Source: Candidatus Cloacimonadota bacterium
GTDB lineage: Bacteria > Cloacimonadota > Cloacimonadia > Cloacimonadales > Cloacimonadaceae
Direction: 5' to 3'
NCBI GenBank assembly: GCA_029567705.1
Contig: JAKPXC010000030.1
Location: 1 to 35,107 of the forward strand
DNA: 35,107 bases
Part shown: piece by piece, positions 9,696 to 15,229 of the stretch
Position numbering within the stretch: the stretch's first letter is position 1
Layout: every line of letters begins with the position of its first letter
The notes under the pieces: generated by a model
Database searches by the model: none
What the model was told of the DNA's origin: nothing
Seen by the model: only the letters and a program-made list of their open reading frames with translations
Position numbers and translations under genes: made by a program

Positions 9696-12206
9696 ATGAA
9701 ACACGAACTAGATATTTTACTGTCCCATAAAGACGTCATAATTACGTATGATCACCTAAGAATGATGGTCAACTATTCCAGGAATGATTTACATGAATCC
9801 TGTGTAGTAAGATTAGACAAACCACTTGATTATATCCAATATTACCACGATACTGGTAATCTGATTATTAGGGATGTTGACGGAGGGCATAGACTCTTTC
9901 TGCTGAGGCATAAGTCTGTTCTGGAAACAGTGATTGAATCACATGAGAGAGTATCACTAATACACGAGGATTATGTTGTAGCAGAAGGTGATGATGAGAC
10001 ACGTGTATGGCGGATAAGAGACAATAAAATGATGCCGCTTGTATTCGAAAAGGCTTTTATTTGCCAGGAATACCTGGCTAATGATCGATACGTTATCCAG
10101 AAAAGTCCTAATGGAGGTAAGCTTCTGGTTACAGCAGGACATAAAATAGATTTTAGTAATCCTTTGTACACTTTGTTAGCCAGGAATAAACCTACACTCA
10201 CGAACACGATAGAAGATGAAGTGTTTCCAGATTTATCGTTGTCGGTCAGCAACAAAACAAGTTCATATATGATCAGATATAGCACGGCAGAATCATACTT
10301 TGCACTTTACTCTGTGCAGAATGCCAATCCTAAACTGATTAACAAAGTTGATAAACATGCCTGTCGTATACTGCGTATCAGGTTTGCTAATGAGAATTCT
10401 TTTATTTCACTTGATGATGGCGGAAAACTAAAGATCTGGTTGGTTAACGATGGGGATTTGAGTGTCTGTCAGACTATCACTTCTGAAGAGTTTTATAAGG
10501 GCAGTTTTTACTCCGATTTCGATATAGATACTTCAAGGCAGCAGCTAACTCTCAAAACACTGAACCGAATTGATTGCTACAAGTTAGATATCTCAAAATA
10601 CAGAAAACAACAGAAGAATAACCTGATATCATTCATCTATTCTGAAGTCTTCAGTCCGAATCAAGCAGTGCCTGAGGGTGATCTGTATAGAAAACGGACC
10701 GGTAGTGAACGCAGTGGCATTGCGAAACCTAAAGCCTCAAGGGGTGAGTACTATGGTTCCATCTTTCTGAAAAATGGTCCAGAGCAAAGCTATTCGTCTG
10801 AGACCAGACCTATGTCAACTGGAGTTGTTATGGAGCAAAGTGGAATTGACTCATTCATAATTCCAGAGACTGACCTATATGAAACAAAGAATGGGTTGCC
10901 GGACGAACCTAGTTTCATTGGACAAGTCAGTAAAAAATCCCCTGAGATTCATGTCAACAAACCAGGTTCCCGATTTCGAAGGCAACATGCTACCATCTAT
11001 GTGGGTATAGATTTTGGAACCAGTAGGACCAAGGTGTCATTTAACAATGAATCTGAAGGAAGATATGAGCCTCTGTTGTTTACGCACTTACAGCCAAAGA
11101 ATTATGTAAGTCGAGACTTGATTGATGATTATGCGATCCCAAGTATTGTACGCATTCATCAAGACCAGATGTTCTACGGATATGATGCAATAGGTGGACA
11201 AGGTAAAATACTTTCCTTCTTCAAACAGGAGCTCTTGCTTGATAGAGATCCCGATAGTCGGATGATGAGTGTCTGTGCCGGATTTCTTGCTTATGTTATG
11301 ACATTTGTTAAAGATCAGATTTGCTCTCTGACTAACGCCGGGCCTGATGATATGTTCGTCTTCTCGGTTTGTCTACCGGTCGATAGAATGAATAACAACG
11401 CTATTGTAAAAAGATTTGATAAAGTATTGATGTATGCCAAGGAAGTGATGGAGCTTGGTTGCTTAAACAATCTGGAGGAAATCAAGAAGATAATTTGTAG
11501 TTCAAATACTATTGGCGAAACTGAATCGAGAACCAGAACTGCAATTATACCCGAATCAATCGCGGAAGTTTTGGACTACTGTAACAGAAAGGCTAGGAAC
11601 CAACTGTATGCGTTGTATGATTTCGGCGCAGGCACAACTGATCTAACTATTTTCCTCTATAACAGTTTGAAAGGCCAAGCGCAGATAGCTGAGGCACAAG
11701 TAGTAAATAAAGGTTATTCTTACATAGATAGATTAAAGAATAATGGAGTGGTTAATGCTTCCGATGTCAGGAGATACTACTCAGAGATATGGCATGAGTT
11801 TAGAATTCAGGATACCTGGGCTAGAGCAAAAAGGAAGATTGCAGGAATTGAGTCGATGAGATTCTTTTATGACATAACACTTTTCGGAAGTGGCGGAGGC
11901 TTTAATGATGAGATAGTTAGAGATGTATTCAAGAAAGTACCTCTATATCACGAAAGGACCAATGATTTTATCGTTGCCAAATCTGGAATATCAAAACTGG
12001 AAGAGCCAATAGATTGGGATACCACTAAGCCACCATACTTCCGCTATGCAGTTTCGTTTGGACTAACCAAAAAGCCTGAAGAGACGCTAAAGAGTTATCT
12101 CTTGCCCCGTGATTTTCCCATACCTGATAGATCAATAAGAATCCGAACTAGTAAGGAACCGGATGTTCTATATCCTAATAACAGTTGGTTAGGGAGAAGA
12201 AAGTGA
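9696..12206 (+). CDS. Beta-propeller-like / Hsp70-actin superfamily ATPase fusion
   Basis: C-terminal half carries phosphate-1 (YVGIDFGTSRTKVSF), phosphate-2 (LYDFGAGTTDLTIF) and adenosine-like (ITLFGSGGGFNDEIV) motifs. N-terminal about 300 aa are beta-rich and WD40-like (e.g. DDGGKLKIWLVNDGDLSVCQTI). RBS AGGAGGAGCT-ATG. Confidence 0.8.
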   Translation: MKHELDILLSHKDVIITYDHLRMMVNYSRNDLHESCVVRLDKPLDYIQYYHDTGNLIIRDVDGGHRLFLLRHKSVLETVIESHERVSLIHEDYVVAEGDDETRVWRIRDNKMMPLVFEKAFICQEYLANDRYVIQKSPNGGKLLVTAGHKIDFSNPLYTLLARNKPTLTNTIEDEVFPDLSLSVSNKTSSYMIRYSTAESYFALYSVQNANPKLINKVDKHACRILRIRFANENSFISLDDGGKLKIWLVNDGDLSVCQTITSEEFYKGSFYSDFDIDTSRQQLTLKTLNRIDCYKLDISKYRKQQKNNLISFIYSEVFSPNQAVPEGDLYRKRTGSERSGIAKPKASRGEYYGSIFLKNGPEQSYSSETRPMSTGVVMEQSGIDSFIIPETDLYETKNGLPDEPSFIGQVSKKSPEIHVNKPGSRFRRQHATIYVGIDFGTSRTKVSFNNESEGRYEPLLFTHLQPKNYVSRDLIDDYAIPSIVRIHQDQMFYGYDAIGGQGKILSFFKQELLLDRDPDSRMMSVCAGFLAYVMTFVKDQICSLTNAGPDDMFVFSVCLPVDRMNNNAIVKRFDKVLMYAKEVMELGCLNNLEEIKKIICSSNTIGETESRTRTAIIPESIAEVLDYCNRKARNQLYALYDFGAGTTDLTIFLYNSLKGQAQIAEAQVVNKGYSYIDRLKNNGVVNASDVRRYYSEIWHEFRIQDTWARAKRKIAGIESMRFFYDITLFGSGGGFNDEIVRDVFKKVPLYHERTNDFIVAKSGISKLEEPIDWDTTKPPYFRYAVSFGLTKKPEETLKSYLLPRDFPIPDRSIRIRTSKEPDVLYPNNSWLGRRK

Positions 12207-15200: not shown

Positions 15201-15229
15201 TGATGGGAGGTGTTTTCGAGGTTCTATGA
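12203..15229 (+). CDS. SNF2/RapA-type DEAD/DEAH helicase
   Basis: Motif I [93 protein letters not shown]. N-terminal SH3/Tudor-like [39 protein letters not shown]. Start GTG 12203 overlaps the upstream TGA (GTGA). Confidence 0.9.
   Translation: [1008 protein letters not shown]

Follow-up and report, generated by a model that had tools for sequence, protein, structure and literature searches.

An Hsp70-type ATPase and a RapA-architecture SNF2 helicase as a conserved gene pair and candidate defence module in Candidatus Cloacimonadota

The window analysed here is a stretch of 35,107 nucleotides from the genome of a Candidatus Cloacimonadota bacterium (contig JAKPXC010000030.1), and the subject of this study is a pair of adjacent genes on its forward strand. 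The first gene (9696..12206) encodes a protein of 836 amino acids identified as an Hsp70-type ATPase, and the second (12203..15229) encodes an SNF2 helicase with the domain architecture of RapA. The pairing of these two proteins is firmly established as a conserved unit.

The two genes and their products

Both open reading frames (ORFs) are present at the positions given in an earlier note on this DNA, which described the first product as a fusion of a beta-propeller with an Hsp70/actin-type ATPase. The ATPase half of this description holds. The Hsp70/actin motifs named in the note are found at residues 439 (DFGTSRTK), 641 (YDFGAGTTD) and 731 (GSGGG), in a nucleotide-binding domain (NBD) with the Hsp70/actin fold that spans about residues 434–795 (10998..12080, forward strand). 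Pfam alone is silent on this domain; a profile of ten family members matched the DnaK NBD in the PDB at an E-value of 8.7e-7, and an AlphaFold model of the protein, which is confident over about residues 430–810, matched DnaK in Foldseek (E 9.6e-11). Profile alignment to DnaK placed its catalytic residues K70, E171, D194 and T199 at K510, E620, D642 and T647 of the window protein. The equivalents of K70, E171 and D194 are present in 29/29 family proteins, and that of T199 in 28/29, the remaining protein having a serine. Only 32–51 residues lie beyond the NBD in the 26 proteins in which this could be measured, indicating that there is no substrate-binding domain, and the product of the first gene is, as judged from its sequence, an Hsp70-type ATPase and not a chaperone.

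The propeller half of the description is weakly supported. The variable N-terminal region of the window protein (residues 1–430) gave a weak propeller match in Pfam (E 0.037), and an N-terminal profile retrieved mainly WD40 propeller chains from the PDB, again weakly (E 0.012–0.7), while the AlphaFold model has low pLDDT in this region. Across the family, the length ahead of the NBD ranges from 4 to 434 amino acids and differs by lineage. It is weakly WD40-like in the window's group, CxxC-rich in one homologue (G109) and a predicted coiled coil preceded by a hydrophobic stretch in the cyanobacteria, and it is almost absent from Cyanobacterium HL-69. The propeller was thus ruled out as a core domain of the family, and the proposed fusion is, on these alignments, a single lineage's head on a conserved ATPase.

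The helicase ORF had been read in the earlier note from TTG 12185 to 15229, giving 1014 amino acids. The ORF itself is confirmed, but GTG 12203 is more likely to be its start than TTG 12185, because it is preceded by a Shine-Dalgarno-like AGGGAG, shares four bases (GTGA) with the stop of the ATPase gene and coincides in an alignment with the N-terminus (MIEIGT...) of a homologue (G024); the predicted product then has 1008 amino acids. As noted earlier, the SNF2 motif set is complete (DEVGLGKT at 124, DEAH at 230, LTATP at 258, SEGIDLQF at 558 and QRIGRIDR at 583), and the protein passes the Pfam models SNF2-rel_dom (9.7e-23) and Helicase_C (4e-22). The SH3/Tudor-like N-terminal segment that had been suggested is modelled as a small all-beta unit at residues 7–50 (pLDDT about 83). 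The C-terminal part of the model is alpha+beta with two long helices, and the best fold match is RapA over the whole length (Foldseek E 1.9e-37, about 1000 columns). Membership of the RapA and DpdE families was nevertheless rejected on the NCBI cut-offs, as the helicase scores 217 bits against a cut-off of 576 for RapA (NF003426) and 220 bits against a cut-off of 500 for DpdE (NF041062).

Conservation of the pair, exchange of the partner and acquisition

The earlier note had called for a search for co-occurring homologues. An alignment-based search for the Hsp70-like domain alone over 84,980 species genomes recovered at least 23 loci, a lower bound, in seven named phyla, comprising Desulfobacterota, Acidobacteria, Pseudomonadota, Cyanobacteriota, Bacteroidota, Spirochaetota and archaea, while a scan of genome contigs with a single protein as the query returned nothing. 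Among the matches listed, a helicase gene is adjacent and in the same orientation, in either gene order, in 22/22 loci with enough contig, and the two genes usually overlap or lie no more than 30 bp apart (−47 to +30 bp). Likewise, the gene of the partner ATPase was present beside 6/6 of the best full-length plasmid helicases, again in the same orientation. The distances within the two protein families correlate (r = 0.954, 25 pairs), a value as high being reached in 0/2000 permutations. All-against-all BLAST of the neighbours found no third component in more than 3 of 33 loci, so that only the two genes recur; a hidden third component was rejected, the next most frequent neighbour family occurring in 3/33 loci.

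A reverse survey started from the helicase and was blind to the partner, using the PADLOC model PDLC02623, which is labelled 'DrmD', over samples of six phyla with the search-centre genomes left out. The 43 loci comprised 17 with an Hsp70-type partner, 23 in which its position is taken by a sacsin/Hsp90-type GHKL ATPase and 3 with neither; in these last, the helicase lies at a contig edge (L014), a transposase-like gene takes the partner's place (L117), or the match itself is short and low-scoring (L122). The GHKL partner is called TmtA in PADLOC and carries a sacsin-type N-terminal domain according to NCBIfam. Loci with this partner were seen in both bacteria and archaea (L047-L052, L078, L079, L102, L112-L114, L118-L121, L124-L133). 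On a quick helicase tree with long branches, the partner type requires two changes, an exact number that is uncertain, and 0/500 shuffles gave a count as low. From the survey and the tree, this family of SNF2 motors is accompanied by a chaperone-type ATPase of either the Hsp70-like or the Hsp90-like type.

The pair is sparsely distributed, in about 0.3–4% of the genomes in the phyla sampled, and some copies reside on conjugative plasmids. No copies were found in the phage and viral collections IMG/VR and INPHARED, and a phage or prophage origin was rejected on this basis. In the window, the GC content of the gene pair is 0.388, below all 125 sampled stretches of 5.5 kb from the same genome (mean 0.490, standard deviation 0.019). 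The pair is bracketed by an exact 18-nt direct repeat, AAAAAAAGAACTTGACTC, with its left copy at 9515..9532 and its right copy at 15545..15562 (both forward strand). These are the only two copies in 427 kb sampled of this genome (17%), which led to the rejection of the 18-mer as a recurrent promoter, and a repeat as long as 18 nt arose in 0/100 flanks simulated under a first-order Markov model. The low GC content and the bracketing repeat together point to acquisition of the pair as one unit, as far as base composition and repeats can tell. No clean pre-insertion site was found, the flanking genes lying on different contigs in the one well-assembled congener.

Several further features were observed around the pair. 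In Thiocapsa marina (L061), an exact direct repeat of 17 nt, CATAGCCTGATCAGGAG, is present no more than 600 bp out on both sides of the pair (4730-9621) and resembles the 18-mer of the window. Upstream of the pair, the window contains a perfect inverted repeat of 25 nt around a 3-nt loop (9169-9221), adjoined by 45-nt direct repeats at 8934-9052. The genes around the pair are housekeeping or surface genes unrelated to it. One ORF (15659-17758, forward strand) fuses DinB-like, sulfatase-modifying-factor-like (EgtB-like) and methyltransferase domains, comparable to an ergothioneine-type EgtB-EgtD fusion. Another (19732-22260, forward strand) encodes, according to Pfam, an MrfA-like DEAD helicase of 842 amino acids that has an MZB zinc domain and into which an HNH nuclease domain is inserted.

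Defence loci and competing explanations

Homologues of the pair are found within or beside a variety of defence loci. The pair lies between BrxC and PglX inside a BREX operon, co-directional with it (L055), and inside DISARM in two loci, once between DrmA and DrmMI on the opposite strand (L056) and once in the co-directional run drmD-[pair]-drmMI-drmA-drmB-drmC (G163). Elsewhere it begins 5 bp beyond a DUF499 gene, itself preceded by a DUF1156 gene (L067), is directly followed by type I-B cas genes (L038), has AbiE and an EVE-McrB-like ATPase nearby (L037), or stands amid Hachiman, AbiE and restriction genes on the Aminobacter plasmid pAA03 (L042); GmrSD or type III restriction-modification genes lie alongside it in four further loci (L057, L070, L072, L077). 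As a raw count without background control, defence genes were seen nearby in 14/27 inspected loci. A helicase-like ORF whose N-terminus resembles RelE also recurs near the pair (L075 14394-17848, L057 11307-13397); in L075, a DrmA-like ORF comes next, and this may be an ARMADA/DISARM-like locus.

A defence role, which the earlier note had considered possible, is likely from the gene content of these loci, many homologues lying in defence islands or in BREX and DISARM loci. The reading that we consider the most probable is that of a two-gene module, gained by horizontal transfer, in which the SNF2 protein is a DNA translocase and the Hsp70-type ATPase acts as its switch in defence. Several observations weigh against it. 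In the window itself the pair is not set in a defence island, its flanks being housekeeping-like, and about half of the 27 loci, not all of which were scanned, lack an evident defence gene. Neither protein showed a nuclease domain (the helicase being examined by Pfam). Finally, the analogy with the actin-related proteins (Arps) of eukaryotic chromatin remodellers, discussed below, would extend to fold and role alone, the nearest fold being that of Hsp70 and not actin.

Among the alternatives, the pair could be an accessory that modulates a host defence operon (BREX, DISARM or Hma/BR) and not a system of its own. The co-directional nesting in BREX and DISARM and the adjacency to DUF499 are what such an accessory would show. 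However, the host operons are unrelated to each other, and many copies are solitary, including that of the window, leaving this explanation rather unlikely.

A second alternative is an RNA-directed sensor, in which RNA would be bound by the Hsp70-like protein, and the SNF2 protein would work on transcription that has stalled, in the manner of RapA, its nearest solved helicase. The precedent is CnuD of CoCoNuT systems, an Hsp70-like protein in defence operons with McrB-type GTPase partners, for which RNA binding has been proposed (PMC11090510). However, CnuD has degenerate ATPase motifs and retains its substrate-binding domain (PMC11090510), whereas the family described here has intact catalytic residues and lacks that domain. 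Neither HEPN nor another RNase recurs among the neighbours of the 33 loci, and McrB/McrC-type (CnuB/CnuC) genes do not recur there either, the EVE-McrB-like ATPase of L037 and one homologue near L042 being the instances seen. An RNA sensor is accordingly a distinctly doubtful explanation.

Two further explanations are very improbable. A module for the maintenance or partition of plasmids, with a ParM-like actin at its core, would agree with the weak match of one family member to ParM, with the appearance of pSK41 ParM among the fold matches and with several copies on plasmids near parA/parB; however, DnaK outranks ParM, most copies were found outside known plasmids, some sit inside BREX or DISARM, and no gene for a DNA-binding adaptor recurs. 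To a similarly small degree, the pair may be a housekeeping system for transcription recycling, composed of RapA and a helper. The helicase has the domain architecture expected of such a system, but it fails the RapA cut-off, and the pair is rare, mobile, low in GC and surrounded by defence genes in many loci.

Least probable of all, to the point of being scarcely credible, is that the pair is DISARM, with the helicase as DrmD and its neighbour as an accessory: PDLC02623 matches the window helicase over its full length (E 1.6e-140), but the helicase fails the DrmD equivalog cut-off, the locus lacks the DISARM set of DrmA, DrmB, DrmC and DrmMI, of which DrmA, DrmB and DrmMI are absent from the window, where the neighbours are unrelated, and the pair coexists with a true DrmD in both DISARM loci that host it. 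On that equivalog (NF038317, cut-off 610 bits), the window helicase scores 349 bits and its Aminobacter homologue 423, against 1041 for the true DrmD of L056. The separate true DrmD proteins of L056 and G163 score above 1000 bits on another PADLOC model, PDLC02621, and about 120–140 on PDLC02623. The best match found for PDLC02623 (1632 bits) is instead the Hsp70-paired helicase of G163 (L097/L103/L104), nested in a complete DISARM operon, which probably explains the label. The likeliest account is that DISARM operons were the location of some of the seeds of PDLC02623; the 'DrmD' label looks wrong and appears to mark a different system.

A possible switch for the motor and comparison with known systems

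For the preferred module of motor and switch, we infer complex formation, a switch function and an antiviral outcome as follows. The two proteins would form a complex through binding of the Hsp70-type ATPase to the motor, and cycling of the ATPase between ATP and ADP would act as a conformational switch that gates the motor, in the way that the motors of SWI/SNF and INO80 are controlled by actin-related proteins. The variable N-terminus of the ATPase may serve as a sensor, recruiter or tether. Once licensed, the motor would move along incoming DNA and strip or block the proteins there, e.g., RNA polymerase or replication proteins; alternatively, it may pass the invading DNA to a neighbouring restriction-type system, which the nesting in unrelated defence operons would suit equally well. 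Gating of the motor by the ATPase is the simplest model, because the motor and the catalytic site of its partner are both intact, the partner has no peptide site and the two proteins are inherited together, and it is reasonable to suppose that the ATPase licenses the helicase. In yeast, Arp7/9 loosen intramolecular contacts in the SNF2-type ATPase Sth1 (PMC5969521), and INO80 has a DNA sensor to which the N-terminus of Arp8 contributes (PMC6098158).

A broader proposal can be put forward tentatively, namely a prokaryotic defence machine of the type 'remodeller plus actin-like subunit', in which each SNF2 motor of a family carries a dedicated chaperone-fold ATPase switch, with interchangeable, lineage-specific sensor heads on the Hsp70 subunit. 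The partner would have been swapped at least once between the Hsp70 and the Hsp90/sacsin types, and the machine might operate alone or within BREX, DISARM and DUF499 systems. RapA/BrxHII-type SNF2 motors are shared by BREX, DISARM, Dpd and Hma, and their control is poorly understood. The present motor has a single obligate partner, a catalytically intact Hsp70 NBD without the chaperone part, and its sister motors have an Hsp90/sacsin-type ATPase, so that a chaperone-type ATPase as the switch of a DNA motor becomes testable in a system of two genes and could provide a counterpart in prokaryotes to the actin/Arp modules of chromatin remodellers. In addition, PDLC02623, a widely used annotation model, appears to tag a system other than the one it names.

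The earlier note had stated that no characterised two-component system has this pairing. This stands, as no named system with both genes turned up, and no description of an Hsp70-type ATPase paired with an SNF2 protein in phage defence was found in the open-licence literature. One close entry is the PADLOC candidate PDC-M61 (PDLC04730/04731), whose PDC-M61B is distantly related to the Hsp70-like protein, with E-values of 6.8e-5 in the window and 5.8e-11 in L070. PDC-M61A, in contrast, is a model of 482 positions and not a helicase of about 1000 amino acids; PDLC04730 (PDC-M61A) had no match in this genome, where the controls were equally silent, and PDC-M61 was rejected as the same system because PDC-M61A is not this helicase.

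Each of the two proteins resembles parts of known systems. The ATPase shares the NBD fold and catalytic residues of DnaK/Hsp70, but it has no substrate-binding domain, and its locus has no J-protein or exchange factor. Like CnuD, the family provides an Hsp70-like ATPase within a prokaryotic defence operon; unlike CnuD, the window protein consists of an NBD alone as its Hsp70 part, catalytically intact, and is paired with an SNF2 protein. In the SWI/SNF, RSC and INO80 complexes, too, an SNF2 motor has its own ATP-binding subunit of the actin fold, as part of the actin/Arp modules (PMC5969521, PMC6098158), but these are eukaryotic, multi-subunit assemblies bound through an HSA helix, and the fold of the window protein is nearer to Hsp70, so that the likeness is one of fold and role. 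The helicase has the N-terminal Tudor-like sheet, SNF2 core and C-terminal alpha+beta part with two long helices of RapA (PDB 6BOG), and it differs from RapA in its low score, its paired gene and its mobile, patchy occurrence. BrxHII of BREX type 3 and the BR helicases combine Tudor, Swi2/Snf2 and C-terminal RapA-like domains in defence operons (PMC12839542), the same layout as the window helicase, but no PglZ or BrxX belongs to the present pair, which has a chaperone-type ATPase partner instead. DrmD of class 1 DISARM is likewise a RapA/BrxHII-type SNF2 motor of about 1000 amino acids in defence loci, from which the window helicase is set apart by its sub-threshold score, its obligate Hsp70-type partner, the lack of DrmA, DrmB and DrmMI and its homologues' presence beside a true DrmD in two loci. 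The pair thus unites parts of known kinds in a combination that is conserved but undescribed, and its nearest precedents are CnuD and the RapA-like helicases of BREX, DISARM, Dpd and BR.

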